52,122 nt of DNA from SAR116 cluster bacterium AG-321-K23 (GTDB lineage Bacteria; Pseudomonadota; Alphaproteobacteria; Puniceispirillales; Marisalimonadaceae), in the NCBI GenBank assembly GCA_003284565.1, contig QBXO01000011.1:1-52122 (forward strand). The letters are read 5' to 3'. Both the position numbers and the translations under genes were made by a program. Shown here in pieces: positions 1,559 to 18,345 of the stretch; the first letter of the stretch is position 1; each line of letters starts with the position of its first letter. The notes beneath the pieces are model-generated. The model was not told the DNA's origin and made no database searches. It saw only the letters and a program-made list of their open reading frames with translations.

Positions 1559-1569
1559 AAAATTAATTA

Positions 1570-1598
1570 AACCGCATCTAGATTATGCGGTTTTTTTT
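1570..1598 (+). terminator. Intrinsic terminator after dctM
   Basis: CCGCAT (1572-1577) pairs with ATGCGG (1585-1590) around a seven-base loop, extended by two A-T pairs, and is followed at once by eight T residues (1591-1598). This is a textbook rho-independent terminator. It ends directly against the ribosome binding site (AGAGGA, 1599-1604) of the next gene, so it could also act as a partial terminator between the TRAP genes and the dehydrogenase. Confidence 0.9.
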
Positions 1599-1610
1599 AG
1601 AGGACCAAAA

Positions 1611-2546
1611 ATGGATAAAATTGGTATTTGTGGTGTTGGTTTAATAGGAGCAAGCTGGGCAATTGGTTTTGCTAACGCGGGTTTTAAGGTTTTTGTTTAT
1701 GATAGTCATAAAGAAAGCTTTATAACATTCAAGGAAACTTCAAAAAAATTAATTCAAGATATACGTATAATTAATCCTGCCATAGATGAATCAAAAATAA
1801 ACTCTAATATAAAATTGGACTGTACTGTTCAAGAAATTTGTGAAGATGCAATTTTGGTTCAAGAAAGTGTGTTAGAGGATTTAGAGATAAAAAAAAGAGT
1901 TTTTGAACAATTAGATAAATTTGCATCAAAGAATACAATTATTGCGTCATCCTCATCTTATCTCTTAATATCTAAAATCTCTGAGTTTGTTAAGGGTAAA
2001 CATAGATGTATTAATGCTCATCCTGCACTTCCTCCTCATATTGTTCCATTTGTTGAAGTCGCAGGGGGGATAGATACTGACTCAAATATTATAAAAAAAG
2101 CAGTCTCAATTTACAAAATGGCTAAGTATGCCGCAATCACGGTAAATAAAGAAACGGAGGGTTTTGTCCTAAATAGATTACAAGGTGCTCTACTAAATGA
2201 AGCAGTAAGACTTCATGAAGGAGGATTTGCATCAATGGAAGATATTGATATAGCTTTGAAACATGCATTGGGAATAAGGTGGGCTTTTTTAGGACCTTTC
2301 GAGATCATGGATCTAAATGCACCTGAGGGCATTAAAGATTCATTTACCCGATATAAAAAGGGTATTCAAAATTTAGCAAGAGAACAAAATAGTGTACCAG
2401 GATACTCTGAAGAATACTTAAATAAATTAGAAATAGATCAAAGAAAGAGATTATCTTATGATGTAAGAAACGAAAGAGTAGAAAAAAGAAATAAAATGAT
2501 TGCATTAATTAGAAAGCTTAAACTTGAATTAGGAGAGGATATTTAA
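1611..2546 (+). CDS. NAD-dependent 3-hydroxyacyl-CoA / hydroxyacid dehydrogenase (lambda-crystallin/carnitine dehydrogenase-like)
   Basis: A 311-residue two-domain dehydrogenase. The N-terminus shows a dinucleotide fold (GICGVGLIGASWA, residues 5-17). The centre holds NAHPALPPHIVPFVEV, matching the HPxxPP signature of the lambda-crystallin, L-gulonate dehydrogenase and carnitine dehydrogenase branch, followed by EGFVLNRLQGALLNEA. The expected reaction is oxidation of a 3-hydroxy acid or thioester to the 3-keto compound with NAD. AGAGGA lies six bases before the ATG. The stop codon abuts the ATG of the BKACE gene, implying coupled translation and a shared pathway. In carnitine degradation the same pair (dehydrogenase plus BKACE) turns carnitine into betainyl-CoA; whether carnitine is the substrate here cannot be told. 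Confidence 0.85.
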   Translation: MDKIGICGVGLIGASWAIGFANAGFKVFVYDSHKESFITFKETSKKLIQDIRIINPAIDESKINSNIKLDCTVQEICEDAILVQESVLEDLEIKKRVFEQLDKFASKNTIIASSSSYLLISKISEFVKGKHRCINAHPALPPHIVPFVEVAGGIDTDSNIIKKAVSIYKMAKYAAITVNKETEGFVLNRLQGALLNEAVRLHEGGFASMEDIDIALKHALGIRWAFLGPFEIMDLNAPEGIKDSFTRYKKGIQNLAREQNSVPGYSEEYLNKLEIDQRKRLSYDVRNERVEKRNKMIALIRKLKLELGEDI

Positions 2547-3479
2547 ATGGCTAAAAAAGTAATAATTAGTTGCGCAGTTACAGGAGCTATACATACTCCT
2601 TCAATGTCAGAATATTTACCAGTAACAGCTGACGAAGTTATAGAACATTCTTTAGCTGCCCACGAAGCTGGTGCTGCTGTTTTGCATCTGCATGCTAGAG
2701 ATGAAGTAGATGGTCATCCAACACAAGATCCTGAGGAGTTTCAAAAATTTCTTCCAACAATTCATAATTCTTGTGATGCAGTTATAAACATCACAACTGG
2801 TGGCGGACCACAAATGACTGTTGAAGAGAGAATGAAACCTGCCATGCATTTTAAACCAGAACTTGCTTCTTTGAATATGGGGTCAATGAATTTTGGACTT
2901 TTCCCGATGCTTAAAAGGCATAATCAGTTAAAACATTCATGGGAAAAAGAAATGCTTGAAAAAAGTAAATATTCTCTTTTTAAAAATACTTTTGAAGATA
3001 TTGAAAACATTATGACTTTTGGATATGAAAATGGAACTAAGTTTGAGTTTGAATGTTATGACGTTGGTCACTTATATAACCTTCATTATTTTCATAGAGA
3101 AGGTATGCTAAAAGGTCCTTATTTCATTCAATTTGTTATGGGTATAATGGGGGGGATTGGTGCTGATGCAGACAATTTGTTACACATGAAAAAAACAGCA
3201 GACAAGCTTTTTGGTGAAGCAGGTTATGAATGGTCAGTTGTAGGTGCTGGTGCAACTCAAATGAAGATGAATGCGACAGGCGCTTCTCTTGGTTCACATG
3301 TACGTGTCGGCCTTGAAGATTCTCTTTGGGATGGGCCTGGTAATTTAGCTAAGACGAATGCTGACCAAGTCAAGAGAGTAAGAGAGATATTAGAAGGTCT
3401 TTCGCTAGAGGTTGCCACTTCAGATGAAGCAAGGCAAATGTTAGGCCTTAAGGGAAAAAATAATACTAACATAAAATAA
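2547..3479 (+). CDS. Beta-keto acid cleavage enzyme (BKACE, DUF849 family)
   Basis: A 310-residue protein of the BKACE family (3-keto-5-aminohexanoate cleavage enzyme type), a zinc-dependent TIM barrel that converts a 3-keto acid plus acetyl-CoA into acetoacetate plus a new CoA ester. Visible marks are the start (KKVIISCAVTGAIHTPSMS), the zinc-binding HLHAR motif with His47 and His49, NITTGG near residue 82, and the ELASLNMGSMNFG stretch typical of the family. Length is normal. It starts immediately after the dehydrogenase stop with its ribosome site inside that gene. The family is well recognised; substrates vary widely across it and are not resolved here. Confidence 0.93.
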   Translation: MAKKVIISCAVTGAIHTPSMSEYLPVTADEVIEHSLAAHEAGAAVLHLHARDEVDGHPTQDPEEFQKFLPTIHNSCDAVINITTGGGPQMTVEERMKPAMHFKPELASLNMGSMNFGLFPMLKRHNQLKHSWEKEMLEKSKYSLFKNTFEDIENIMTFGYENGTKFEFECYDVGHLYNLHYFHREGMLKGPYFIQFVMGIMGGIGADADNLLHMKKTADKLFGEAGYEWSVVGAGATQMKMNATGASLGSHVRVGLEDSLWDGPGNLAKTNADQVKRVREILEGLSLEVATSDEARQMLGLKGKNNTNIK

Positions 3480-3490
3480 AAAGGTTAAAA

Positions 3491-4276
3491 ATGAACTACG
3501 AAAAACTTCTTGAGGGGAAAAAAGCTCTTATTACAGCTGGAGCAGACGGTATTGGTTACGCGATTGCTAAAAGATTTGAAAAAGCTGGTGCAGAAGTATT
3601 TGTATGCGACATTAACTCTGACGCTGTAAAAAGAGTCAATGAAATTGATGATAATATCAAAGCATTTGAATGTGATCTTAGACAATCTCAGTTAATTGGG
3701 TCTATGGTTGAAGCTGGTTTTGATTATTTAAAAGAGATAGATATTATTGTAAACAATGCGGGAATAGCAGGTGAGACCGCTAGTGTTGGAGAGCAAACAT
3801 TAGGTGGGTGGCATGAATGTCTGCAGGTAAATATGACAAGCCATTTTGAAACAATGAGATTAATTGTGCCCAGAATGAATGATAATGGATCAATTCTTTC
3901 AGTTTCTTCTGTAGCAGGTCGAGTTGGCTTTGCTTATAGGCTACCTTACGCAGCTACAAAATGGGCTGTAATAGGCATGGTAAAAAGTTTAGCAATAGAG
4001 CTGGGACCAAGAGGTATTAGAGTAAATGCTCTTCTTCCAGGAACTGTAAAAGGAGATCGACAAAATCGTGTTATTGAAGCAAAAGCGAAATTAAACAAAA
4101 TTTCTTTTGAGGAAATGAAAAACAAGATATTATCAAGTGCATCTTTGAGAAACTTTGTTACACACGATGATTTGGCTGAACAAGCACATTTCCTTTGTAG
4201 TCCTTTAGGTAAAAATATATCAGGCCAAGCAGTAAGTGTTTGCGGAAACGTTGAGTCAATTAATGATTTCCTCTAA
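3491..4276 (+). CDS. Short-chain dehydrogenase/reductase (SDR)
   Basis: A 261-residue classical SDR. The cofactor loop is a slightly altered TAGADGIG (residues 16-23, Thr-Ala in place of Thr-Gly). NNAG follows near residue 88, and the catalytic set is Ser in SVSSVAG with YAATK supplying Tyr and Lys near residues 154-158. It would reduce or oxidise a hydroxyl/ketone with NAD(P). AAAGG precedes the ATG by five bases and only 11 bases separate it from the BKACE gene, so it probably belongs to the same operon. Its last 21 bases overlap the 3-prime end of the convergent hydrolase gene. Substrate unknown. Confidence 0.92.
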   Translation: MNYEKLLEGKKALITAGADGIGYAIAKRFEKAGAEVFVCDINSDAVKRVNEIDDNIKAFECDLRQSQLIGSMVEAGFDYLKEIDIIVNNAGIAGETASVGEQTLGGWHECLQVNMTSHFETMRLIVPRMNDNGSILSVSSVAGRVGFAYRLPYAATKWAVIGMVKSLAIELGPRGIRVNALLPGTVKGDRQNRVIEAKAKLNKISFEEMKNKILSSASLRNFVTHDDLAEQAHFLCSPLGKNISGQAVSVCGNVESINDFL

Positions 4277-5104
4277 AATAGGATAAATATAAGATTTAAA
4301 TAATTCAGGATTTTCCGACATAGGGAAGTGACCTATCCCTGGTATAATAGTAGCTTTTGATCCTTTAATTCTTTTTGCAGTTTCCAACATTCTTTCTGGT
4401 GTACAAGAGCAGTCATATTCACCTGATAATAGATATACAGGGCATTTTGAAGTATCTATTAAACTTGAACGGTCATCAAAATCTCCATCATGCCAATAAA
4501 AGTAAAGATCACCTTTAAATACACCAGGTCCTCCCTGCATATAATGCCATAAAATTTCATGTTTAAAATTTTTTGGACTCTGGGGTGCTATTTGTGAAGA
4601 AACAAATGCAGCTTGAACTAATCCACCATGAACATCAGGTCTATATAGCCAATCTAAGTCGTAATAAGGTTCAAGCTTGTCAGCACCTTCCAAGGCAATA
4701 ACTGCTTTAAAAAAATTGCCATGTTCAAGGGCAAGATGTAAAACAACTCTTCCTCCCATTGAACAGCCCATTATAACTGGGTCAATTAATTTATATTGCT
4801 TACAAAAAGACATTATTATCTCTTTATATAATTCGGTAGTAAGTTTGTAGTCATTTAATTCATAACCTTCTGGTGGGTTGGATTTCCCATGCCAAGGCAA
4901 ATCAAAAACAATTACTCTATAATTATTTGTAATTCTTTTATCATTTAAAATATGTCGAAATTGTCTTCCATCAGACCCGGCTGTATGCAGACATAATAGA
5001 GGTGTCCCCTGTCCTGCCTCCTCAACATAGATTCTATAATTGTCCTTTTTTAAACTTAAATTAAAATATCTTCCAATAATATCCTCAAAGTTTAAATCAG
5101 TCAT
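4256..5104 (-). CDS. Alpha/beta hydrolase
   Basis: A 282-residue alpha/beta-fold hydrolase with the full serine triad visible: nucleophile Ser115 in GCSMGG, Asp231 in GEYDCS, and His259 in GIGHF. The early LCLHTAGSDG matches the oxyanion-hole region. No signal peptide, so cytoplasmic. Its start overlaps the end of the upstream SCP2-like gene by eight bases (CATGACTGA junction), a sign of translational coupling, and its 3-prime end overlaps the convergent SDR gene. It may act on an ester, lactone or thioester in the neighbouring pathway; the true substrate is unknown. Confidence 0.88.
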   Translation of the reverse strand: MTDLNFEDIIGRYFNLSLKKDNYRIYVEEAGQGTPLLCLHTAGSDGRQFRHILNDKRITNNYRVIVFDLPWHGKSNPPEGYELNDYKLTTELYKEIIMSFCKQYKLIDPVIMGCSMGGRVVLHLALEHGNFFKAVIALEGADKLEPYYDLDWLYRPDVHGGLVQAAFVSSQIAPQSPKNFKHEILWHYMQGGPGVFKGDLYFYWHDGDFDDRSSLIDTSKCPVYLLSGEYDCSCTPERMLETAKRIKGSKATIIPGIGHFPMSENPELFKSYIYPILEEIIN

Positions 5105-7685: not shown

Positions 7686-8153
7686 TTAATAATTTATAGG
7701 TAAGGTATTTATTGTCTTAACTCTTCCTAGCGCAAAATTTGTTTCTATTGATGCAATACCTTTAACTTTTGTGAGTTCTTCTCTCATGAAGATTTCATAG
7801 TTTTTTAAGTCAGTTGCAACAACTCTTAATAAATAATCCCTATTTCCAGTTACTAACCAACAGTCCATAACAGCATCTAAAGATGTTATTTCTTTTTCAA
7901 ATGACTTTAAAATTTGATCAGTTTGATTCTCTAATCTAACAGATACAAAAGCAGTTACAGGATAACCATAAGCAATTTCATCAATAATAGCTGTGTAACC
8001 AGCTATTAAACCTTTTTGCTCCAAGGTTTTTACTCTTCTTAAGCAAGGAGAAGGTGACAAGCCAACTTTTTCAGCTAACTCAAAATTAGTTAATTTTCCA
8101 TTTTGCTGAAGAAAAAAAATAATTTTTTGATCTATTTTATCAATATTGCTCAA
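7686..8153 (-). CDS. Lrp/AsnC family transcriptional regulator
   Basis: A 155-residue Lrp/AsnC protein of normal length: an N-terminal winged helix (IDKIDQKIIFFLQQNGKLTN, then NFELAEKVGLSPSPCLRRVKTLE) and a C-terminal RAM ligand-binding domain (from about residue 65). It starts at TTG with AGG six bases upstream. It is transcribed away from the E1-like gene across a 122-base gap that contains a perfect 18-bp palindrome. Lrp-family proteins often control the divergent gene in response to an amino acid or 2-oxo acid. In Pseudomonas an Lrp-type regulator (MdeR) sits beside an E1-like gene (mdeB), which is a suggestive parallel, not proof. Confidence 0.95.
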   Translation of the reverse strand: MSNIDKIDQKIIFFLQQNGKLTNFELAEKVGLSPSPCLRRVKTLEQKGLIAGYTAIIDEIAYGYPVTAFVSVRLENQTDQILKSFEKEITSLDAVMDCWLVTGNRDYLLRVVATDLKNYEIFMREELTKVKGIASIETNFALGRVKTINTLPINY

Positions 8154-8181
8154 AAAAAACCTATTTTAATATAATATTTTA

Positions 8182-8199
8182 CTAATATAATTATATTAG
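8182..8199. promoter_or_regulatory. Perfect 18-bp palindrome, candidate Lrp operator
   Basis: CTAATATAA (8182-8190) is followed directly by its exact complement TTATATTAG (8191-8199). It lies in the gap between the Lrp gene and the E1-like gene, about 28 bases upstream of a possible -10 hexamer (TATAAT, 8228-8233). An uninterrupted dyad with GC-capped ends and an AT centre resembles the sites bound by Lrp/AsnC dimers. Confidence 0.55.
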
Positions 8200-8275
8200 C
8201 AGATAATATTAAATTTAGAAGTATTTTTATAATATTTAGTCATTCATTCTATTTAAAAGATGCTACATTAAAAAA

Positions 8276-10573
8276 ATGAATGATGTTGAAATTTTAAAAA
8301 AAATTGAAAAGAAAGTGTTGTGGCTTGCTTGCTGGATGATTCATAATGCAAATCACATTAGAGAAAATCAAGATGGTCTTAAAGTTGGTGGCCATCAAGC
8401 AAGTTCTGCTTCAATAGTCTCAATAATGACAGCTTTGTATTTTAGTATTTTAAAGCCTGAGGACAGAGTTGCAGTCAAACCTCATGCAAGTCCAGTATTT
8501 CATGCTATTCAGTATTTGTCTGGATTACAAACTAAAGAAAAAATTGAAAATTTTAGAGGTTTTGGTGGTGCGCAATCATACCCGTCTAGAACTAAAGATA
8601 TTGATGATGTTGATATTTCAACTGGATCAGTTGGATTAGGGGTAGCAATGACAAGTTTCATTTCATTAATTCAAGATTATATTGCAAGAAAACAATTTTA
8701 TAAAAATAAACCTCTAGGGAGAATGATTGCGTTAGTTGGTGATGCAGAGCTAGATGAGGGTAACGTTTATGAGTGTCTTCAAGAAGGCTGGAAACATGAT
8801 TTAAGGAATGTTTGGTGGATAATTGATTATAACCGACAATCACTTGATGGAGTTGTCCATGAAGGGTTATCTGAAAGGCTAAGCTCTGTTTTTTCAGCTT
8901 TTGATTGGAACCTTGTGGTATTAAAATATGGTAAATTACAAGAAGAAGCATTTAAAGAACCTGGTGGAAATAAATTAAGAAAATGGATTGATGATTGCCC
9001 TAATCAATTATATTCAGCTCTAATATTTGAAGGAGGTGAAGCTTTTAAGAAAAGAGTTTTAGACGATATTGGCGATCAATCTGAGATTTCAAATCTGGTT
9101 AACAAAAGATCTGATTCTGAGTTTTTAGAATTAATGTCAAACTTAGGAGGTCATTGCATTTCTACTCTGTGTGAGTCATTTAGTAAAATTAAGGATGATA
9201 AACCAACTGCTTTCATTGCATATACAATTAAAGGTTGGGGTACCCCATTAGCAGGCCATAAAGACAATCATGCTGGTCTTATGACTAAAGCTCAAATGAA
9301 TGATTTTAAATCTAAATTAGAAATTAATGATGGCGAGGAATGGAATAATTTTTCTGATGACAAAAAGTATTTAAGTATAGATGAATATATAAAAAATTTA
9401 CCTTTTCAAAAAGTAGGTCATAGAAAATTTAGTGGAACTAAAATAGTAATCGATGAACCCGTTTTGATTAATGATAATAAAATATCTACTCAAAGTGCAT
9501 TTGGAAAAATTCTAGACACATATGCCAAAAATGATACTGAATTTACACAAAGAATTGTAACCACTTCACCTGATGTATCAGTCTCGACTAACCTTGGATC
9601 ATGGATTAATAGGAGAGGATTGTTCAGTAGAAAAGATAATTCTGATATTTTTAAAGATAGGAAAATACCCTCAGCTCAAAAATGGATTTTTTCTCCAGAT
9701 GGACAGCATATAGAACTTGGTATAGCTGAAATGAACTTATTTATAATGCTTGGATCTGCTGGTCTTTCTCATGAGTTGTTTAATGAAAGATTGTTCCCTA
9801 TAGGCACAGTTTATGATCCATTTATAGCACGAGGTTTAGATGCTCTAAATTATGCCTGCTATCAAGATGCAAGATTTATAATTGTAGGAACTCCCTCTGG
9901 TGTCTCCCTAGCACCAGAGGGCGGCGCTCATCAATCTATAGGAACTCCTTTAACTGGTATAAGTCAGCCTGGACTGCTAAGTTTTGAACCTGCTTTTGCA
10001 GATGAACTGTCAATTATGATGAATTACAGTTTCAATTATCTGCAAGATGAAAATGGTGGTTCTGTATATATCAGATTAAGCACTCGATCAATTGATCAAC
10101 CATCTAGAGAATTATCTAAAGATCTACAAGGTCAAATTTTAAAGGGAGGATATTGGTTAAAGCAACCTGGTTCAAACCCAGAAATCATATTAGCTTACCA
10201 AGGTGTTATAGCAGCAGAAGTCATTCAATCAACTGCTAATTTAGGAGAAAAATTCAGAGATATTGGGGTCTTGGCTATTACGAGTTCAGATATATTATTA
10301 AGTGCCTGGAAAGATAAACATTTATCTCCTAATCAAAATAATACTGAATCTCATATTGAAAATTTATTAAAAGATGTTCCAAGAGATACTAAAATTTTGA
10401 CAGTAATTGATGGTCATCAATTAACATTATCTTGGTTAGGCTCTGTACTTGGTCATAAAGTAATACCTCTTGGAGTTGACCGCTTTGGACAAACTGGAAA
10501 TATAAAAGAACTTTTGACAGAGTTTGCAATTGACTCTGATAACATAAGTAAATTAGGGTTTAAATTTGCTTAG
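8276..10573 (+). CDS. Thiamine-dependent 2-oxo acid dehydrogenase E1-like / transketolase-family protein (AceE/MdeB-like)
   Basis: A 765-residue homodimeric PDH-E1-type protein. The thiamine diphosphate motif runs from GDAELDEGN (residues 155-163) to DYNRQ with Asn186. A catalytic-type Glu lies in ELGIAEMNL (Glu485), and the PEGGAHQSIGTPL loop resembles the active-site histidine loop of AceE. E. coli AceE is about 890 residues, so this is a shortened relative, like MdeB, which is proposed to act on 2-oxobutyrate. No E2 or E3 gene is nearby, so it may share the cell's common E2/E3 or act alone as a decarboxylase or transketolase. No clear ribosome site precedes the ATG. It heads a rightward gene run. 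Confidence 0.85.
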   Translation: MNDVEILKKIEKKVLWLACWMIHNANHIRENQDGLKVGGHQASSASIVSIMTALYFSILKPEDRVAVKPHASPVFHAIQYLSGLQTKEKIENFRGFGGAQSYPSRTKDIDDVDISTGSVGLGVAMTSFISLIQDYIARKQFYKNKPLGRMIALVGDAELDEGNVYECLQEGWKHDLRNVWWIIDYNRQSLDGVVHEGLSERLSSVFSAFDWNLVVLKYGKLQEEAFKEPGGNKLRKWIDDCPNQLYSALIFEGGEAFKKRVLDDIGDQSEISNLVNKRSDSEFLELMSNLGGHCISTLCESFSKIKDDKPTAFIAYTIKGWGTPLAGHKDNHAGLMTKAQMNDFKSKLEINDGEEWNNFSDDKKYLSIDEYIKNLPFQKVGHRKFSGTKIVIDEPVLINDNKISTQSAFGKILDTYAKNDTEFTQRIVTTSPDVSVSTNLGSWINRRGLFSRKDNSDIFKDRKIPSAQKWIFSPDGQHIELGIAEMNLFIMLGSAGLSHELFNERLFPIGTVYDPFIARGLDALNYACYQDARFIIVGTPSGVSLAPEGGAHQSIGTPLTGISQPGLLSFEPAFADELSIMMNYSFNYLQDENGGSVYIRLSTRSIDQPSRELSKDLQGQILKGGYWLKQPGSNPEIILAYQGVIAAEVIQSTANLGEKFRDIGVLAITSSDILLSAWKDKHLSPNQNNTESHIENLLKDVPRDTKILTVIDGHQLTLSWLGSVLGHKVIPLGVDRFGQTGNIKELLTEFAIDSDNISKLGFKFA

Positions 10574-10607
10574 GTAATTTTTATAATAACAACAGATAGG
10601 AGTTATG

Positions 10608-11600
10608 ATGAATAAATTGATTAAAATACTAATGATTAGTTTTACGAGCTTATTTTTTACTGCTAGTGCATTCGCGGCAGATATAACGATGAGGATATCA
10701 TTGCAGTTGCCTATGAAAAGTCACTTAGGCCAAAATTTATTACTCTTTAAAAAAGAAGTTGAAAGCAGATCAAATGGAGAAATTAAGGTCGAAATTTACG
10801 ACTCAGCGCAGCTTTATAAAGATAAAGAAGTACCCGCAGCAGTTGGTTCGGGATCGATTGAATCAGGTGTGGCTTCATTAACAAGATATGTTGGTGATAT
10901 TCCAGCAGTTGATTTATTCTACCAACCATTCTTGTTAAACACTGATAAAAAAGTAAGAAAAGCCGTTTCTAAGGGATCGTCAATTAGAGGACCAATAGAC
11001 AATGCAATTAAAAACACTGGTTCTACTGTATTATGGTGGCAAGCATATGGTAATGCGATAATGCTTTCAAAAGGTCAAGCTATTAAAAATCCTTCTGATA
11101 TGAAAGGAAAGAAAGTTAGAGTATTTGGAAAGACATTAGGTACTTTTGTGAAGGCAGCCGGGGGTGCACCAACATTAATCTCTGGTTCTGAACAATATTT
11201 AGCTTATCAAAGAGGTACAGTTGATGTTGGAATGACAGGTGTATCAGGTGTGAAGTCAAGAAAACTATTTGAAGTTATGGATACTATTACCAAAACTAAT
11301 CATGGTGTAATTGAATTTATCGTAGTTGCTAATACAAAATGGTTCAATAGCCTGTCCGCAAAACAAAAAGATATCATTGTTAAATCTGCAGAAATTGCTG
11401 AAAAAGATGTACGTGATAATGTTGCTAAAATAGAACAGGAGGCATATGATTTAGCAAAGTCAAAAGGTATGAAAATTGTAACTCCAAGTAAAGCTGATAT
11501 TGATGCATTTAAATCTGCATCTAAACCAGTTTATGATGATTACAAGAAAAATGCTGGATCACTTGGTGCTCAGCTTTTAGATGCAGCTTCTAAATTATAA
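10608..11600 (+). CDS. dctP: TRAP transporter substrate-binding protein (DctP)
   Basis: A 330-residue periplasmic solute-binding protein of the DctP family. An N-terminal signal peptide ends at SAFA before ADITMR. The family core is visible in MKGKKVRVFGKTLGTF and the SEQYLAYQRGTVDVGMTG stretch that contacts the ligand carboxylate. Two ATGs lie in tandem at 10605 and 10608; I chose 10608 because AGGAG (10598-10602) is then five bases away rather than two. It precedes DctQ and DctM, separated by a strong hairpin, so binding protein may be made in excess. The ligand is probably an organic acid, identity unknown. Confidence 0.95.
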   Translation: MNKLIKILMISFTSLFFTASAFAADITMRISLQLPMKSHLGQNLLLFKKEVESRSNGEIKVEIYDSAQLYKDKEVPAAVGSGSIESGVASLTRYVGDIPAVDLFYQPFLLNTDKKVRKAVSKGSSIRGPIDNAIKNTGSTVLWWQAYGNAIMLSKGQAIKNPSDMKGKKVRVFGKTLGTFVKAAGGAPTLISGSEQYLAYQRGTVDVGMTGVSGVKSRKLFEVMDTITKTNHGVIEFIVVANTKWFNSLSAKQKDIIVKSAEIAEKDVRDNVAKIEQEAYDLAKSKGMKIVTPSKADIDAFKSASKPVYDDYKKNAGSLGAQLLDAASKL

Positions 11601-11609
11601 AAATTAAAA

Positions 11610-11632
11610 AGAGAGAGTTTTTAACTCTCTCT
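11610..11632 (+). promoter_or_regulatory. Perfect hairpin between dctP and dctQ
   Basis: AGAGAGAGTT (11610-11619) pairs perfectly with AACTCTCTCT (11623-11632) around TTT. There is no T-run after it on the + strand, so it is probably not a full terminator for rightward transcription. Stem-loops after binding-protein genes often protect the upstream message from 3-prime decay, giving more binding protein than permease. On the opposite strand it is followed by T5, so it could stop antisense transcripts. Confidence 0.75.
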
Positions 11633-11641
11633 AATCTAATT

Positions 11642-12133
11642 ATGAATTATTTCGAAAAGATTATAGATTTAGTTGCATGGTTATCGGCATGGTTATTCTG
11701 CTTAGCTGGTTTTATGCTTTCATATGAAGTTATAGCCAGATACTTTTTTTTAGCACCGACTTCATGGGCTGCCGAACTTAGCCAACTTTCATTAATTTAT
11801 GGTACTTTACTAGCTATGCCATGGGCATTAAAATCAAGAAAACATATCCAAATAAATTTAGTAATAAATAGATTATCCAAGAGGTATAAAAAAATAATAA
11901 ATATCTTAATAATGATAATTTTAATTATTTTTTCGTCTTACGTTATGATTTTTGGTTTTGACATATTTTATGATTCTTTTTTTAGAGGCAGGACAACAGG
12001 AAGTTTATTAAATCTACCATCATGGATTGCTGAGTTGTCTGTTCCGTTATGCTTTTTTTTACTTTTCATACAGTCAATTTTGGAAATTATCAAATTATTA
12101 AAAAATATAGAACCACCAGAAAGTGATCATTAA
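11642..12133 (+). CDS. dctQ: TRAP transporter small permease (DctQ)
   Basis: A 163-residue membrane protein with four predicted hydrophobic helices (about residues 8-30, 45-65, 80-105 and 125-150), the usual DctQ topology and length. The motif YEVIARYFFLAPTSWAAELS (residues 29-48) is characteristic of the family. It joins DctM in the inner membrane. The ATG follows the hairpin by nine bases without a clear ribosome site. The next gene begins two bases after its stop. Confidence 0.93.
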   Translation: MNYFEKIIDLVAWLSAWLFCLAGFMLSYEVIARYFFLAPTSWAAELSQLSLIYGTLLAMPWALKSRKHIQINLVINRLSKRYKKIINILIMIILIIFSSYVMIFGFDIFYDSFFRGRTTGSLLNLPSWIAELSVPLCFFLLFIQSILEIIKLLKNIEPPESDH

Positions 12134-12135
12134 TT

Positions 12136-13410
12136 ATGACTATACTTTTAGTTTTAACATTAATGTTTGTTTTACTATTATCTGGACTTCCAGTATCTTT
12201 CTCCCTTGGTTTTCTTGGACTTTCTATGTTGATTTTTGGTGGTTTCTCTCCTTTAATGGCACCACAGGCAATTTTATCGACCCTTGATGGTTTTATATTA
12301 CTCGCCGTACCTCTTTTTCTTCTTATGAGTAATGTTCTTTTAAAAGGTGGATGTGGAAAAGATTTGTTCAATGCCGTACAAGCTTGGGTTGGTCATTGGC
12401 CCGGCGGTTTAGCCGTAGCAACAATAATTTCATGTGGTATTTTTGCAGCTATTTCTGGTGTGTCTGTTGCAACTGCAGCTACTATTGGTGTTGTTGCCAT
12501 ACCAGAAATGATCAAAAGAGGTTATAACAAAAACTTTGTTTATGGCCTATTAGCTGCTGGGGGGACACTAGGAATATTAATACCTCCAAGTTTGCCAATG
12601 ATTGTGTATGGTTTTATTACAGAGGAGTCGGTAATTGCGCTATTTCTTGCTGGGATTGGACCTGGAATATTCTTAATATCTTTGTTTATTATTTATTCTA
12701 TAATATTCTCTCAATTTTTTGGTGGCTTTAAAAAATTAGAGCCTAGCAGTTGGGAAATTAAAAAAAATACCTCTAAAAAGGTAATTCCTACAATTATATT
12801 AGCTTTTCTAATACTTGGTGGAATTTATACAGGTGTATTCACTCCAACTGAGGCTGCTGCTATAGGTTTTTCTTTATCGTTAATTATAACTGTACTTATT
12901 TTAAAAACTTTAACCTGGAATGATTTTAAAGAAGCTGTTTTTGAGTCAATGGTGACTACTGCAGCTATTTTGATAATAGTTGCATGTGCAAAAACATTTG
13001 GAAAGGCAATTGCACTATATAGAATTCCTCAGGATATATCCTATTTCATTAGTTCTAGCATCGATACAAAAGCACTTTTCATGATTGTTGTATGTATAAT
13101 TCTAGTTGCTATGGGTTTGGTTTTTGAAACGTTGTCAATGGTTATAATAATGGTACCAGTTCTTTTGCCAGCAGCAATGGCAATTGGAGTAGATCCAATA
13201 TGGTTTGGTATCTTTATGGTCATAATGGTAGAATGTGCGCTTATTACACCTCCTGTAGGATTAAATCTTTATGTGATACAATCAGTAGCAAAAACTCAAT
13301 TAGGAGAAGTAGCTAAAGGGGTGTTTCCTTTTATTGTGATGATGATCTTTACGGTTTTTGTAATGTATATATGGCCTGATTTAGCGCTTTATATCCCTTT
13401 TAAATTATAA
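12136..13410 (+). CDS. dctM: TRAP transporter large permease (DctM)
   Basis: A 424-residue polytopic membrane protein, standard DctM length. Family motifs include FAAISGVSVATAATIG, GGTLGILIPPSLPM (about residues 137-150) and the second-half TPTEAAAIGFSLSL. It forms the sodium-coupled channel of the transporter with the preceding DctQ, with which it is almost contiguous. It belongs to a different subgroup from the longer DctM at the window start. Its genes sit inside the E1-like/lyase/nitrile hydratase run, so the imported compound is probably the substrate of that pathway. Confidence 0.95.
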   Translation: MTILLVLTLMFVLLLSGLPVSFSLGFLGLSMLIFGGFSPLMAPQAILSTLDGFILLAVPLFLLMSNVLLKGGCGKDLFNAVQAWVGHWPGGLAVATIISCGIFAAISGVSVATAATIGVVAIPEMIKRGYNKNFVYGLLAAGGTLGILIPPSLPMIVYGFITEESVIALFLAGIGPGIFLISLFIIYSIIFSQFFGGFKKLEPSSWEIKKNTSKKVIPTIILAFLILGGIYTGVFTPTEAAAIGFSLSLIITVLILKTLTWNDFKEAVFESMVTTAAILIIVACAKTFGKAIALYRIPQDISYFISSSIDTKALFMIVVCIILVAMGLVFETLSMVIIMVPVLLPAAMAIGVDPIWFGIFMVIMVECALITPPVGLNLYVIQSVAKTQLGEVAKGVFPFIVMMIFTVFVMYIWPDLALYIPFKL

Positions 13411-13444
13411 ATTTGTATGACATGGTTATTAACAGGATTTTGAA

Positions 13445-14344
13445 ATGATAAATGAAACAGACAAAATTAAAAAAATAAGTCAACCAGATAAATTAAGAAA
13501 AATTTTAAAAGAAAAATCTTTTGTTCCAATACCGTCTTGTTTTGATGCCTTATCTGCTAAATTAATTGAACAAGCAAATTTTGATGTTACGTTTATGTCA
13601 GGTTTTGCTGCGTCTGCTTCTAGAATAGGGTCTCCAGATCTTGGACTTATGACCTTCTCTGAGGTTTTTGATCAAGCAAATAATATTTGTAATGCGATCG
13701 ATATACCGATGATTGTAGACGGTGATACAGGATATGGAAATGCTATGAATGTTCGAAGAACATTAAAAGAATGTTCTAAGGCAGGTTGTGCTGGCATATT
13801 GATTGAAGATCAACTAGCACCGAAGCGTTGTGGTCATACACCAGGAAAAGATGTTGTAAATCGTGAAGAAGCATTTGATAGAATAAGAGCAGCGAGTGAT
13901 ATGAGAAATGAAGGTTATGATATTTTAATTATGGCACGAACTGACGCTAACCATACTCATGGTCTAAGTGAGGCAATATTAAGATCACAAAGATTTTATG
14001 AACTTGGCGCAGATATTATGTTTATTGAAGCTCCAAAAAATAAAGAAGAAATGAGAACAATCTGTAATGAGGTTCCTGGTGTTAAAATAGCTAATATTGT
14101 TGAAGGAGGCATAACACCAAATTTATCAATGAAAGAATTGACAGATTTTGGTTATAAACTTGCCGTGTATCCACTTACTGTGATGAGTTCAGCAATGAAA
14201 GCAATGACTAAATCATTAAATTTACTTATGAAAGATGAAGACAGGTCAGACTTATTACTTGATTTTAGTGATTTAAGACAAAAAATTGGCTTTAATGATT
14301 ATTACGAAATATCTAGCAAATATGAAACTTCAAAAAGAAGTTAA
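13445..14344 (+). CDS. Isocitrate lyase/PEP mutase family C-C lyase
   Basis: A 299-residue TIM-barrel enzyme of the isocitrate lyase / PEP mutase superfamily. The metal-binding segment is VDGDTGYGN with Asp92 and Asp94, and the flexible catalytic loop reads KRCGH (residues 127-131) with Cys129, as in 2-methylisocitrate lyase and dimethylmalate lyase. The cysteine argues for a carbon-carbon lyase rather than a phosphonomutase. Such enzymes split 2-substituted malates or citrates to pyruvate or succinate plus a carbonyl product. It lies between the TRAP genes and an alcohol dehydrogenase in the same orientation. Exact substrate unknown; oxaloacetate decarboxylase activity is an alternative. Confidence 0.9.
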   Translation: MINETDKIKKISQPDKLRKILKEKSFVPIPSCFDALSAKLIEQANFDVTFMSGFAASASRIGSPDLGLMTFSEVFDQANNICNAIDIPMIVDGDTGYGNAMNVRRTLKECSKAGCAGILIEDQLAPKRCGHTPGKDVVNREEAFDRIRAASDMRNEGYDILIMARTDANHTHGLSEAILRSQRFYELGADIMFIEAPKNKEEMRTICNEVPGVKIANIVEGGITPNLSMKELTDFGYKLAVYPLTVMSSAMKAMTKSLNLLMKDEDRSDLLLDFSDLRQKIGFNDYYEISSKYETSKRS

Positions 14345-14371
14345 GGATTTATAAACTGGGAGAATAGCAAT

Positions 14372-15418
14372 ATGAAGAGTTATCAGGTTGTTGAGTTCGG
14401 TCAGCCTTTAGAATTAAGGGAATATGAAAATCCTAAGCCAAAAGGAGAAGAAGTTCTTGTAAAAATTACAGCGTGTGGCGTTTGTCATAGTGATCTTCAT
14501 TTAGCAGATGGTTATTTTGATTTGGGGGATGGAAAAAGAATAACTTTGGCTGACAGAGGAACAAAGCTTCCTTTTACTCCAGGACATGAAATAACTGGAA
14601 CTGTAGTTGCTCTTGGGGAGAATGTTAAAGATATCAAAATAGGCGACACTGGAATAGTATTTCCTTGGATAGGTTGTGGTAAATGTGAAGCTTGTTTAGA
14701 AAATAATGAAACATTATGCGAGGCACCTAAATATTTAGGCGCTCGTCTTAATGGAGGCTACTCTGATCATATAATTGTACCTCACAGTAAATATATAGTT
14801 TCTTACGGTGACATGGATCCTGCACAAGCTGCACCATATGCATGTTCAGGATTAACCGCATATAGTGCTTTGAAAAAAATTCCTACAACTTCGAAAGATG
14901 ATTGGATTATAATTATAGGTGCAGGTGGTGTTGGTATAAATGGTATTTTATTATCACCTGCAATACATAATGCAAAAATTTTAGTTATAGATAATGACCC
15001 CGAAAAGAGGAAAAAAGCTATTGAGTCTGGTGCGAATGAAGCTTTTTCACCAGATCAAGAAACTGAAATTAGAAATAAAATTGGAATTGGAGCTTCTGCA
15101 ACTATAGATTTTGTTGGAAGACCTGAAACAACTGACTTTGGTTTGTCACTTGTAAAAAAAGGGGGTATTGTAATTGTTGTTGGTTTATACGGTGGATCAC
15201 TAAAACTTTCATTGCCGTTAGTCCCAATGAGATCTATGACGCTCAAAGGTTCTTATGTTGGCGAGCTAAGAGAATTAAAAGAACTGGTAAATATTATTAA
15301 ATCAGGCACAATTAAATTAATACCAGTAAAAAAACAAGGTTTAGAAACAGCAAATCAAGCAATGTCTGATTTGCGAGCAGGAAAAGTTAACGGAAGAATA
15401 GTTTTAACTCCAAATTAG
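14372..15418 (+). CDS. Zinc-dependent alcohol dehydrogenase
   Basis: A 348-residue medium-chain dehydrogenase. Catalytic-zinc residues are in CGVCHSD (Cys38) and PGHE (His72, Glu73). The structural zinc site is complete with Cys102, Cys105, Cys108 and Cys116. The Rossmann motif is GAGGVGINGI (about residues 188-197). It would oxidise an alcohol to an aldehyde or ketone with NAD(P). GGGAG precedes the ATG. It sits between the lyase and the nitrile hydratase genes; a second enzyme of the same superfamily closes the run. Confidence 0.93.
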   Translation: MKSYQVVEFGQPLELREYENPKPKGEEVLVKITACGVCHSDLHLADGYFDLGDGKRITLADRGTKLPFTPGHEITGTVVALGENVKDIKIGDTGIVFPWIGCGKCEACLENNETLCEAPKYLGARLNGGYSDHIIVPHSKYIVSYGDMDPAQAAPYACSGLTAYSALKKIPTTSKDDWIIIIGAGGVGINGILLSPAIHNAKILVIDNDPEKRKKAIESGANEAFSPDQETEIRNKIGIGASATIDFVGRPETTDFGLSLVKKGGIVIVVGLYGGSLKLSLPLVPMRSMTLKGSYVGELRELKELVNIIKSGTIKLIPVKKQGLETANQAMSDLRAGKVNGRIVLTPN

Positions 15419-15450
15419 AAGTATAAAATAATAAAAAAAGAGATTGAATT

Positions 15451-16092
15451 ATGAGTGAAAAGAAAAAAATTGCTGATGGTCATTATCATTCACATGATCA
15501 TGCGCACTCACATTTGCCATCAGATCCTGAATTAAGAGTAAAAGCCGTAGAGACTTTGCTTTTAAACAAAGGTTTAATAGACTCTAAAACTTTAGATGAA
15601 TTGATTGACACTTATGAGAATCGAATAGGACCTAAAAATGGTGCAAATGTAGTAGCTAAAGCTTGGGTAGATCCAGAGTATAAAAAAAGACTTTTGATTG
15701 ACGCTACATCAGCAATTAGAGAATTGAGTTACCAAGGAAGACAAGGTGAGAATATGGTTGTTGTGGAAAACACACCAGAAATTCACAATATAATAGTCTG
15801 TACATTATGTAGTTGTTATCCATGGCCAGTTCTAGGTATTCCACCAACTTGGTATAAAAGTGACGAATATAGATCTAGAACAGTAAGAGAACCAAGGAAA
15901 GTTCTTTTAGAATTTGGTTTATCTTTAGATCCTAAAATTCAAATAAAGGTATGGGATTCTACCGCAGAAATAAGATATTTAGTACTGCCAATGAGACCGA
16001 AAGGTACGGAACATATGGCTGAAAGTAAACTTGCAGAGTTAGTAACACGAAATTCAATGATAGGTACTGGATTGCCAAAGGAAATCAAATGA
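15451..16092 (+). CDS. nthA: Nitrile hydratase alpha subunit, cobalt type
   Basis: A 213-residue alpha subunit of nitrile hydratase, which hydrates nitriles to amides. The metal-binding claw reads CTLCSC (Cys117, Cys120, Ser121, Cys122). Thr in the second position is the mark of the cobalt form; iron enzymes have CSLCSC. The flanking [18 protein letters not shown] is typical. The N-terminus carries a run of six histidines spaced through [13 protein letters not shown], which may help metal loading. Thiocyanate hydrolase gamma has the same claw, but the full-length fused-type beta subunit next door favours nitrile hydratase. It overlaps the beta gene by four bases (ATGA). No amidase gene is nearby. 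Confidence 0.93.
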
Positions 16093-16829
16093 GCAGATTA
16101 CATGATATGGGTGGCCGTTTTGGTGATGGATCAATTCCCGTCCCAAGGAATGATAAAAATGAAGTAGTTAATTTTGAACCAACTTTTAAATATGATTGGC
16201 ATGCAAGAGCATGGGCAATAACTCTTGCTGCTGGTGCTTTAGGAGAATGGAATATTGATGTTAGCCGACATTATAGAGAGTGTTTGCCACCAAAGGACTA
16301 TATAAATTTTTCTTATTATGAAAAATGGTTAGCTGCCCTTGTTAATCTTCTAATAGATAAAGATCTAATTTCATTAAATGAATTAAAAGAATATGTTTCT
16401 GCAGCTATAAATGGAACTATAGACAATATTATTGAAAAAGAGATTATACTTGATGAAAGAACTTGGTTAGCTAAAGATGTTCAAAAAACACTTGGTTGGG
16501 GAGGCCCCTCTATTAGAGACGTAAATATAAGTCCTTTTTTTAATATAGGTGATAAAGTTATTACACAAAATTATAGTCCAAACAAAGACATTACTGGTGG
16601 ACACACTCGTTTGCCAAAATATGCTATGGGAAGAGTGGGTGTAATCCATTCTTATAACAATAATCACGTTTTCCCTGATAAAAATGCTCATAGTTTGGGA
16701 GAGAACCCTTTACCATTATACACCGTTGAGTTTAAATCTTCAGAGCTATGGGGAGAATTGGCTGAGAGTCAAAATGACAGTATCCTTCTAGACTTATGGG
16801 AACCATATCTAAAAAGTTTTCCAAATTAA
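16089..16829 (+). CDS. nthB: Nitrile hydratase beta subunit
   Basis: A 246-residue full-length beta subunit. The start [11 protein letters not shown] is the family N-terminus, followed by [13 protein letters not shown] and a helical segment [20 protein letters not shown]. The C-terminal SH3-like half begins around residue 155 (FNIGDKVI) and includes [15 protein letters not shown] and [15 protein letters not shown]. It pairs with the alpha subunit to form the active site. The ATG overlaps the alpha stop by four bases, so the subunits are translated together. The gene order is alpha-beta-accessory. Confidence 0.93.
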
Positions 16830-16845
16830 TCTTAAAAAAAATAAA

Positions 16846-17205
16846 ATGAATTCTGATTATAATTTACCTTTTACGAATAAAACCGAAGATCAAATTGTTT
16901 TCCAAAATCCTTGGCACAGTCAATTATTTGCGATTACAGTTCAAATGTCAGAAAAAGGAAATTTTAGCTGGAAAGAGTTTGTTGAAGTTTTTGGAGAGTC
17001 ACTTAAAAAACAAAGATCACTCTCAAATAATTTAGATGGAAGTAATGATTATTTTTCTTGTTGGTTAAATGCACTTGAAGAAATCCTTATCATAAAGAAA
17101 ATAAGTAATCAAAAGACTTTGATGCTATTAAAAGATGATTGGACTCAAGCTTATTTATCTACACCTCATGGCAAACCGGTGAATATTAAAAATAGGAGTT
17201 TTTAA
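16846..17205 (+). CDS. Nitrile hydratase accessory protein (P14K-type metallochaperone)
   Basis: A 119-residue protein with the accessory-protein core FQNPWHSQLFAITVQMSEKG (residues 24-43) followed by FSWKEFVEVFGESL, similar to the N-terminal part of the beta subunit. In cobalt nitrile hydratases this small protein swaps in with the alpha subunit to insert cobalt and allow oxidation of the claw cysteines. It lies 16 bases after the beta gene. It ends with TAA directly before the ATG of the next dehydrogenase. Presence of all three genes argues for a functional enzyme. Confidence 0.88.
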   Translation: MNSDYNLPFTNKTEDQIVFQNPWHSQLFAITVQMSEKGNFSWKEFVEVFGESLKKQRSLSNNLDGSNDYFSCWLNALEEILIIKKISNQKTLMLLKDDWTQAYLSTPHGKPVNIKNRSF

Positions 17206-18345
17206 ATGTCAATTACATGTAAAGCTGCAGTTATTAGAAATAACAAATTAACTGAACCATATAAGGATTCAAAGCCCTTATCCATTGAGGAAATCAAAAT
17301 TTCACCTCCTCTTGAAAATGAAGTTCTTGTGAAAGTTATGGGTGCAGGTCTTTGTCATTCTGATTTGTCAGTTATTAATGGATCCAGAGTGATGCCTCTA
17401 CCACTGGTAATTGGTCATGAAGGTTCTGGTGAAGTAGTTGAATTAGGAAGTGCTGTAAAAGATATAAAAGTTGGAGATCATGTTGCTTTTCAATTTTCAC
17501 CTTCTTGTGGAAGATGTAGAAGGTGTCTTGAAGGAAGACCTCAAGTATGTGAACTTGCAGCTGCAACAAAAGGTAAAGGTGATTTAATGTCAGGTGGAAG
17601 CAGATTGACAGATATGGAAGGGAATAGGCTTAATCACCATACTGGGATCTCGTGTATGTCTCAATATAATGTAGTTGATAGAGGATCTGTAGTTGCAATA
17701 GACAAAGCCTTTAATATAGAAGATGCTGCTCTTTTTGGGTGTGCTGTTATGACAGGTGTTGGAGCTGTAATTAATACCGCTAGAATAAGACCAGGAGATT
17801 CGGTTGCCATTATTGGACTAGGAGGTGTAGGACTAAATGGTATAATTGGTGCAAAACTAGCAGGAGCTGAAACTATAATTGCAATTGATATAGATCCATC
17901 AAAATTTATAAGAGCTGAAGAACTTGGGGCAACACATTGTTTTGATAATAGAAATAATAATATGGTTGAAAAAATAAGAGATTTAACAAATGGTGGTGTT
18001 GACTACGCAATTGATCTAGCTGGAGTAATACAAGCCATGGATACTGCTTATCAAATTATAAGATATGGAGGATCTGTGGTTACTGCTGGTTTGTCACCTA
18101 TAAATACGAAATTTAGTTTTAACCATAGTGATCTAGTTGCACAGGAAAAATCAATTTTAGGAAGCTATATGGGTTCATGTGTTCCTGTAAGAGATGTCCC
18201 CAGATTTCTAAATTTATATAAACAAGGACGTCTACCAGTAAATAAACTTATAGACGGGAAAATTACTTTTGATGATTTGAATGAAGGCTTTGATAAATTG
18301 TCAAAAGGTGAAGTGGTTAGGCAGATACTTATGCCTAACGCGTAG
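17206..18345 (+). CDS. Zinc-dependent alcohol dehydrogenase (class III-like medium-chain)
   Basis: A 379-residue medium-chain dehydrogenase of the longer, class I/III-like type. Catalytic zinc residues are Cys50 (GLCHSD) and His71-Glu72 (IGHEG); structural zinc residues are Cys101, Cys104, Cys107 and Cys115. The cofactor motif is GLGGVGLNGIIG with IAIDID after it. AGGAG precedes the ATG, which abuts the stop of the accessory gene. It ends the rightward run and is only three bases from the end of a convergent gene. It could oxidise a hydroxymethyl, benzylic or aliphatic alcohol; formaldehyde metabolism is another possibility for this branch. Confidence 0.93.
   Translation: MSITCKAAVIRNNKLTEPYKDSKPLSIEEIKISPPLENEVLVKVMGAGLCHSDLSVINGSRVMPLPLVIGHEGSGEVVELGSAVKDIKVGDHVAFQFSPSCGRCRRCLEGRPQVCELAAATKGKGDLMSGGSRLTDMEGNRLNHHTGISCMSQYNVVDRGSVVAIDKAFNIEDAALFGCAVMTGVGAVINTARIRPGDSVAIIGLGGVGLNGIIGAKLAGAETIIAIDIDPSKFIRAEELGATHCFDNRNNNMVEKIRDLTNGGVDYAIDLAGVIQAMDTAYQIIRYGGSVVTAGLSPINTKFSFNHSDLVAQEKSILGSYMGSCVPVRDVPRFLNLYKQGRLPVNKLIDGKITFDDLNEGFDKLSKGEVVRQILMPNA

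Follow-up and report, generated by a model that had tools for sequence, protein, structure and literature searches.

A modular SAR116 locus joining an AceE-like enzyme, a TRAP transporter with a lyase, and a nitrile hydratase: a possible role in 2-oxobutyrate catabolism

Introduction

The locus described here is a cluster of eleven genes of SAR116 cluster bacterium AG-321-K23, in which an Lrp-type regulator faces ten genes that start with an E1-like thiamine diphosphate (ThDP) enzyme and include a nitrile hydratase (NHase). It lies in a stretch of 52,122 nucleotides (the window), which is contig 11 of a 1.8 Mb genome, 69% complete. Its closest described counterpart is the mde operon of Pseudomonas putida, which consists of the Lrp-type regulator mdeR, the methionine gamma-lyase mdeA and the 2-oxobutyrate dehydrogenase E1 mdeB. 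An excerpt of a paper on P. donghuensis also names mdeA and aceE/mdeB together (PMC10256816). The window locus resembles the mde operon in its divergent Lrp-family regulator and AceE-related E1, and the E1 family adjoins methionine gamma-lyase in 20 of 64 alphaproteobacterial loci outside the open-ocean SAR116 family of the window's genome (f1; f3 and f4 are other families compared). Unlike the mde operon, it has no methionine gamma-lyase and adds a tripartite ATP-independent periplasmic (TRAP) transporter, a lyase, an NHase and two alcohol dehydrogenases (ADHs), and its E1 is a short protein that scores well under the AceE cut-off.

Three other described systems are relevant. The acdR-acdS genes of Proteobacteria pair an Lrp-type regulator with 1-aminocyclopropane-1-carboxylate (ACC) deaminase (PMC4048297, in excerpt). 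The same logic is seen in loci L119, L121, L122 and L124, where an Lrp and a 2-oxobutyrate-forming enzyme precede the E1 family; the window locus, in contrast, has no deaminase, and the regulators facing ACC deaminase in these loci form a separate, distant clade in the Lrp tree. Like the cobalt NHases 3qxe and 4ob1, the window has alpha, beta and activator genes, a CTLCSC motif and a strong sequence match; unlike them, its NHase genes have an ADH gene on either side and are linked to E1. Among the best solved relatives of the lyase are the petal death protein (1zlp), dimethylmalate lyase (3fa3) and methylisocitrate lyase (1mum), all of the KRCGH/KKCGH type, although it differs from the last in falling under the methylisocitrate lyase cut-off.

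The protein families are each known. As far as the papers show, their combination, the likely 2-oxobutyrate role of the E1 family and the operator link to methionine gamma-lyase regulators are new within the literature searched, where no described pathway with this gene set was found, as an earlier prediction from the sequence (the original prediction) had supposed. None of that literature combined nitrile hydratase with SAR116, and in excerpts of two SAR116 papers (PMC12262181, PMC8547437) the word "hydratase" referred to CoA hydratases or did not occur.

Results and Discussion

Three modules joined in one SAR116 family

The locus is not one fixed pathway. Three modules (Lrp-E1, DctPQM-lyase and ADH-NHase-ADH) are joined in f1. 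The arrangement originally predicted, a divergent Lrp and ten rightward genes, was recovered as eleven intact open reading frames (ORFs) with -4 to 41 bp between same-strand genes, and Pfam, NCBIfam and motif location agreed with the gene families and with the CTLCSC and KRCGH motifs. The features are:

7686..8153, minus strand: Lrp/AsnC-family regulator, divergent from the E1 gene (Pfam HTH_24 and AsnC_trans_reg)
8196..8212, plus strand: proposed operator of the Lrp between its gene and that of E1, a degenerate form of the palindrome TTAGCATATTATGCTAA (letters TTAGCAGATAATATTAA)
8276..10573, plus strand: E1-like ThDP enzyme, 765 aa, divergent AceE relative (TIGR00759, 166.8 bits vs cut-off 859.9)
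10605..11600, plus strand: DctP, TRAP solute-binding protein, optional module (PF03480 and NF037995, over cut-off)
11642..12133, plus strand: DctQ, TRAP small permease, optional module (PF04290, over cut-off)
12136..13410, plus strand: DctM, TRAP large permease, optional module (TIGR00786, over cut-off)
13445..14344, plus strand: lyase of the isocitrate lyase/phosphoenolpyruvate (PEP) mutase superfamily, KRCGH, optional module (PF13714)
14372..15418, plus strand: ADH1, zinc alcohol dehydrogenase (PF08240, PF00107)
15451..16092, plus strand: NHase alpha, cobalt-type (TIGR01323, 308.0 vs 249.85 bits; CTLCSC)
16089..16829, plus strand: NHase beta (TIGR03888, 207 vs 152.2 bits)
16846..17205, plus strand: NHase accessory (activator) protein (TIGR03889, 75.8 vs 46 bits)
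17206..18345, plus strand: ADH2, zinc alcohol dehydrogenase, class I/III/NDMA-ADH-like (TIGR03989, 314.6 bits, below the cut-off of 440)

The E1 gene was present in 45 of the 58 f1 genomes and NHase alpha in 42. The 41 genomes carrying both have them on the same contig and strand without exception, across four genera. The order E1, ADH1, NHase alpha, beta, accessory, ADH2 was found in 26/26 f1 stretches read and in 14/16 f1 loci of a second collection (its genomes partly overlap the first), the exceptions being L111, which stops at the contig end, and L107, which is without ADH2. Five f1 genomes have E1 or NHase alone: in G016, G024 and G062 the lone gene is no more than about 1.5 kb from where the contig stops; in G018 and G023, E1 is followed by just 3.6 and 2.6 kb of sequence, too short for a TRAP-bearing cluster. 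We do not take the absence of the cluster from 12 of the 58 genomes as real because these are 53-84% complete; E1 is present in all ten f1 genomes listed at 85% completeness or more. As a side observation, the L107 contig runs past the NHase accessory gene into an inverted copy of upstream-flank genes and is probably a single-cell amplification chimera.

The genes between E1 and NHase vary. Scored by E1-NHase spacing, which agrees with a gene-by-gene reading of the 26 stretches, the 41 clusters comprise 14 with both TRAP and lyase (4.9-5.1 kb), 14 with the lyase and no TRAP (2.0-2.4 kb) and 13 with neither (1.1-1.2 kb). TRAP is thus present in 14 clusters and the lyase in 28. On the E1 tree (37 of the 41 genomes) the TRAP label changes six times, five of them forced by well-supported branches. 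What is special in f1 is that E1, ADH1, NHase and ADH2 are retained even though the intervening genes, DctPQM and the lyase, are repeatedly gained or lost. An E1 plus ADH-NHase-ADH core with an exchangeable TRAP-lyase module is supported, and among the loci read this core was found only in this one SAR116 family.

The original prediction was of a single linear pathway, in which all ten products import a nitrile-bearing acid, hydrate, oxidise, cleave and decarboxylate it. All ten genes are indeed present in the 14 clusters of the longest spacing (and in 8/26 stretches read by gene), with short gaps between them. Yet the 27/41 clusters without TRAP, the 13/41 without lyase and the repeated changes of the TRAP label do not fit a pathway needing every gene, and neither does the TRAP-lyase pair without nearby E1 in 14 genomes outside SAR116. 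No link between the transporter and nitriles came to light either; elsewhere it pairs with the lyase. The strict ten-gene pathway is thus already disfavoured, and we regard it as improbable.

Another explanation is that modules without a common function have come to lie side by side in a streamlined genome. In the low-GC SAR116 subclade, to which f1 most likely belongs, the intergenic spacer averages about 18 bp (PMC8547437, in excerpt), so the tight spacing of the cluster says little in favour of an operon. Promoter-like (64 vs 58.7 expected) and terminator-like sites (9 vs 5.1) in the window were uninformative, and an Rfam search of it gave no match. In addition, the flanking genes are mostly constant in the f1 stretches that extend to them (AT; AspH, YajQ, ABH2, modBC; two genera lack the ABH gene), and therefore part of the order conservation in f1 is general synteny. 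Synteny of this kind, however, does not easily account for E1 and NHase staying together and co-directional in 41/41 genomes of four genera despite the repeated gain or loss of TRAP and lyase between them, and we consider mere shared location rather unlikely.

The modules outside f1

Outside f1 the modules lie apart. We searched 386 alphaproteobacterial genomes for E1 (E<=1e-100), NHase alpha (E<=1e-3), lyase and DctP (both E<=1e-60) and found matches in 137, 144, 64 and 30 genomes, respectively. DctP and lyase matches within 2.4 kb, joined by eye from listed coordinates, occurred in 14 genomes outside SAR116 (G162, G189, G204, G227, G234, G348, G384, G403, G418, G427, G448, G477, G487 and G491); with identities of just 40-53%, those in G189, G204, G348, G403, G427 and G477 could represent TRAP transporters of another type. 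Two genomes with the pair and no E1 match (G227:C1:7207-10861 and G487:C1:927698-931358) are single contigs of 1.2 Mb.

Within SAR116, the TRAP-lyase module adjoins E1 in 3/10 f3 loci read (L088, L095, L097), and none of these ten stretches has NHase or ADHs. In the f3 genome G082, one site near 1.67 Mb holds E1, TRAP and lyase; NHase lies at 0.25 Mb. The ADH1/ADH2 pair was absent from all 24 NHase loci read outside f1, four from f3/f4 and 20 from outside the order, the latter taken from the 25 best-scoring (the L220 stretch is only 4.9 kb long); in none of the 24 is the ADH-NHase-ADH module linked to E1. E1 and NHase are a conserved pair within f1. Modules kept apart outside it, as in G082 and the 64 non-f1 E1 loci described below, are what the original prediction had named as making a single pathway unlikely.

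The E1-like enzyme and its partner genes

The E1 is a divergent relative of AceE. Its alignment to AceE from the PDB starts at AceE residue 76, the first 75 residues being missing, and the 11 rows of the alignment of E1 relatives start at most 18 residues before the AceE-aligned start of the window E1. In AceE the N-terminal part serves to bind E2. A canonical AceE was rejected on this absence together with the TIGR00759 score. The predicted model (pLDDT 83) has AceE 2g25 as its best match (TM 0.85). AceE residues H106, H142, K392, E571, Y599 and H640, which have catalytic roles in AceE, correspond to H40, H70, K319, E485, Y513 and H552 of the E1, as counted by hand on the AceE alignment; AceE E401 and H407 are not kept, being His and Gly in the E1, in a loop with another His close by. 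The genome encodes one E2, to which the E1 may couple, and the product would leave either as acyl-CoA via this E2 or as free aldehyde. Plasmid records label members of the family "transketolase" or "1-deoxy-D-xylulose-5-phosphate synthase N-terminal domain-containing".

The neighbours of this family elsewhere bear on its substrate. We examined 64 non-f1 E1 loci, drawn from the best 80 of 570 confirmed relatives (the 16 others are f1 by gene content). Same-strand, upstream genes identified by tblastn were methionine gamma-lyase (at least 55% identical) in the 20 loci already mentioned and ACC deaminase in four; an ORF-based count gave 19 and 4. NCBIfam identified 18 of 21 scanned neighbour proteins of the first group as methionine gamma-lyase at E<=1e-150, and the ACC deaminase of L119 scored 584.6 bits vs a cut-off of 392. 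When 61 of the 91 remaining same-strand neighbours were scanned, each Pfam family was matched by at most three. Methionine gamma-lyase yields 2-oxobutyrate. The product of ACC deaminase is alpha-ketobutyrate, according to an excerpt of PMC5276845. Since two unrelated partner enzymes have this one product in common, the guilt by association becomes specific, and a 2-oxobutyrate role of the E1 family is likely. It would give a testable function to a ThDP family present in about one third of the sampled alphaproteobacterial genomes (137/386).

The four ACC deaminase loci are from Rhizobiaceae and have, at about 8200-12320, a divergent Lrp-type gene and ACC deaminase directly upstream of the E1-like gene. 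Excerpts of the acdS literature (PMC4048297, PMC5276845) make no mention of an E1-like enzyme beside acdS.

The Lrp regulator and its putative operator

The regulator scores 125.2 bits, below the Lrp equivalog cut-off of 233. In the Lrp tree the f1 regulators form their own group (support 72/84), apart from the f3 Lrps, which fall among those directly facing E1; the f1 group joins neither these nor the regulators of methionine gamma-lyase, with weak support at the base.

The f1 Lrp-E1 spacers contain the palindrome given in the feature list, perfect in L075 and L076, with one mismatch in L074 and L078 and worn elsewhere. The f1-derived pattern reached a shuffle p<=0.05 in 15/24 f1 spacers, a circular count as the pattern was drawn from those spacers. 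The same threshold was reached in 14/18 spacers facing methionine gamma-lyase, in 0/10 f3 spacers, in 0/19 direct Lrp-E1 spacers outside f1 and in 0/4 spacers facing ACC deaminase. A widened pattern, TTRGCAnnnnnTGCYAA, picked after both spacer sets had been viewed, occurred with 0-2 mismatches in 19/19 methionine gamma-lyase-facing spacers (p<=0.05 in all) and in 1/16 direct Lrp-E1 spacers outside f1. These operator counts are not independent, as related genomes share descent. Five loci (L131, L141, L154, L157, L172) have two Lrp genes; the TTRGCA palindrome accompanies the one that faces methionine gamma-lyase and is lacking at the one that faces E1.

In 8/10 f1 genomes searched the Lrp-E1 spacer is the best-matching site genome-wide; in G022 it ties with another site and for G019 only other sites are listed. 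Recurrent sites with two mismatches in these ten genomes, one kind in the spacer upstream of a 294-aa gene and one kind within a gene, were not accepted as a wider regulon.

These patterns suggest that a regulator of the methionine gamma-lyase type either stood at the origin of the f1 operon or took it over. Methionine gamma-lyase itself is absent from the window locus, and the closest matches to it across 37 f1 genomes, all from the same genus as the window, are 27-40% identical. Because the f1 Lrp would use the operator type of methionine gamma-lyase regulators, one could also imagine that the whole f1 locus serves methionine- or dimethylsulfoniopropionate (DMSP)-related sulfur compounds. 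The substrate of the E1 would then be 4-methylthio-2-oxobutyrate, the ADHs would handle methional/methionol and the NHase 3-methylthiopropionitrile, with all routes converging on 3-methylthiopropionate, a DMSP demethylation product. According to an excerpt of PMC8547437, the low-GC SAR116 subclade has only the demethylation route, with genes forming dimethyl sulfide (DMS) also placed in its subgroup LGC1. We give this idea very little credence; if true, it would mean that marine sulfur metabolism has a nitrile branch not described so far, carried by a clade abundant in the ocean.

The lyase, nitrile hydratase and alcohol dehydrogenases

The TRAP transporter of the window cluster is complete (DctP, DctQ and DctM by Pfam and NCBIfam). 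The lyase that follows carries KRCGH at residue 127 and has the petal death protein 1zlp as its nearest solved structure (202 bits). Methylisocitrate lyase (PrpB) was rejected (254.4 vs a cut-off of 354.4 bits). The petal death protein cleaves 2-alkylmalates, including 2-ethylmalates, the latter to 2-oxobutyrate, which makes a chain of TRAP, lyase and E1 plausible.

By sequence the NHase is an ordinary cobalt enzyme. The alpha, beta and accessory proteins exceed curated NCBIfam cut-offs, CTLCSC is at residue 117 of alpha, whose PDB relatives are 4ob1 and 3qxe, and a single gene encodes both the N- and the C-terminal domain of beta. Thiocyanate hydrolase was rejected (gamma-subunit model 195.5 vs 291.45 bits). 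ADH1 has the NAD-dependent ADH 2eer as its nearest PDB chain, and the structural relatives of ADH2 are class I and III ADHs. The window genome has eight amidase-family genes elsewhere and none next to the NHase; in the f3/f4 relatives L098 and L101, by contrast, the NHase faces a divergently oriented gene of an amidase family.

The two ADH genes around the NHase invite a different assignment, in which an E1 without its E2-binding end frees an aldehyde (e.g. propanal from 2-oxobutyrate) that the ADHs reduce or oxidise, the NHase being a side function for nitriles or cyanohydrins arising from such aldehydes. An E1 alignable only from AceE residue 76 would fit this, as would the "acetolactate synthase"-annotated gene that adjoins plasmid relatives of ADH2 (51-52% identical) in 3/4 records opened. 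The same three records carry a CoA-transferase, however, which would allow their ThDP enzyme to be an acyl-CoA lyase, and 0/64 non-f1 E1 loci have an ADH1 or ADH2 relative at 45% identity. An aldehyde-releasing decarboxylase seems to us a minority option. The three records (L289, L290, L292) are plasmids of Caballeronia, Paraburkholderia and Skermanella, with the "acetolactate synthase" gene beside the ADH2 relative and the CoA-transferase near; viral contigs had no ADH2.

Proposed function

Our preferred reading, which we hold tentatively and would put at a little under an even chance, is a catabolic locus for 2-oxobutyrate (or a related short 2-oxo acid) with exchangeable feeder modules. The AceE-like ThDP enzyme, under Lrp control, would act on 2-oxobutyrate, and perhaps on related short 2-oxo acids, to give a propionyl unit. 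Methionine gamma-lyase or ACC deaminase, encoded next to it, would supply the 2-oxobutyrate in some other Alphaproteobacteria. The f1 locus encodes neither of the two and holds the other two modules. Where present, the optional TRAP transporter would import an alkylmalate that the 2-alkylmalate-type lyase could cleave to a 2-oxo acid and a short acid, for example 2-ethylmalate to 2-oxobutyrate and acetate. The f1-specific ADH-NHase-ADH module would hydrate a nitrile, an amidase encoded elsewhere would hydrolyse the amide and the alcohol would be oxidised, for example from 2-hydroxybutyronitrile through 2-hydroxybutyrate to 2-oxobutyrate. Every substrate, the role of the NHase, the direction of the ADH steps and transcription as a single unit are, at this stage, our inference.

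Several observations weigh against this proposal. Neither methionine gamma-lyase nor ACC deaminase was near E1 in 40 of the 64 non-f1 loci, which are moreover the best-scoring part of the 570 relatives. By tblastn those 64 loci have no DctP, lyase, NHase or ADH relative at 45-48% identity (weaker relatives are a partial 38% lyase in L123 and 25-33% TRAP proteins in L152 and L176). As this 0/64 is matched by 0/14 for E1 near the TRAP-lyase pair in non-SAR116 genomes, the link of E1 to the TRAP-lyase and ADH-NHase-ADH modules was seen in SAR116 only. The window operator copy has two mismatches to TTRGCAnnnnnTGCYAA and alone is not above chance, and 9/24 f1 spacers, including that of L062, the nearest to the window, miss p<=0.05. 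The lyase has "EGG" and "EAP" in common with the petal death protein and Pro in place of Ser, which is why 2-ethylmalate is a guess as its substrate. Lastly, Pfam and NCBIfam gave no amidase or 2-hydroxyacid dehydrogenase family in the cluster.

The locus points towards the use of nitriles being a trait conserved within one SAR116 subclade, and it shows a fixed core able to take and lose feeder modules. The low-GC SAR116 subclade had no pure culture as of 2021 (PMC8547437, in excerpt).

Other features of the window

The GC content of the window is 28-35% in 5 kb steps. To the left of the cluster (167-5104) are a second DctM, a 3-hydroxyacyl-CoA dehydrogenase-type gene, a beta-keto acid cleavage enzyme, a short-chain dehydrogenase/reductase (SDR) and an alpha/beta hydrolase, a set that resembles genes of carnitine degradation and that is present also in the f1 stretches long enough to cover it.

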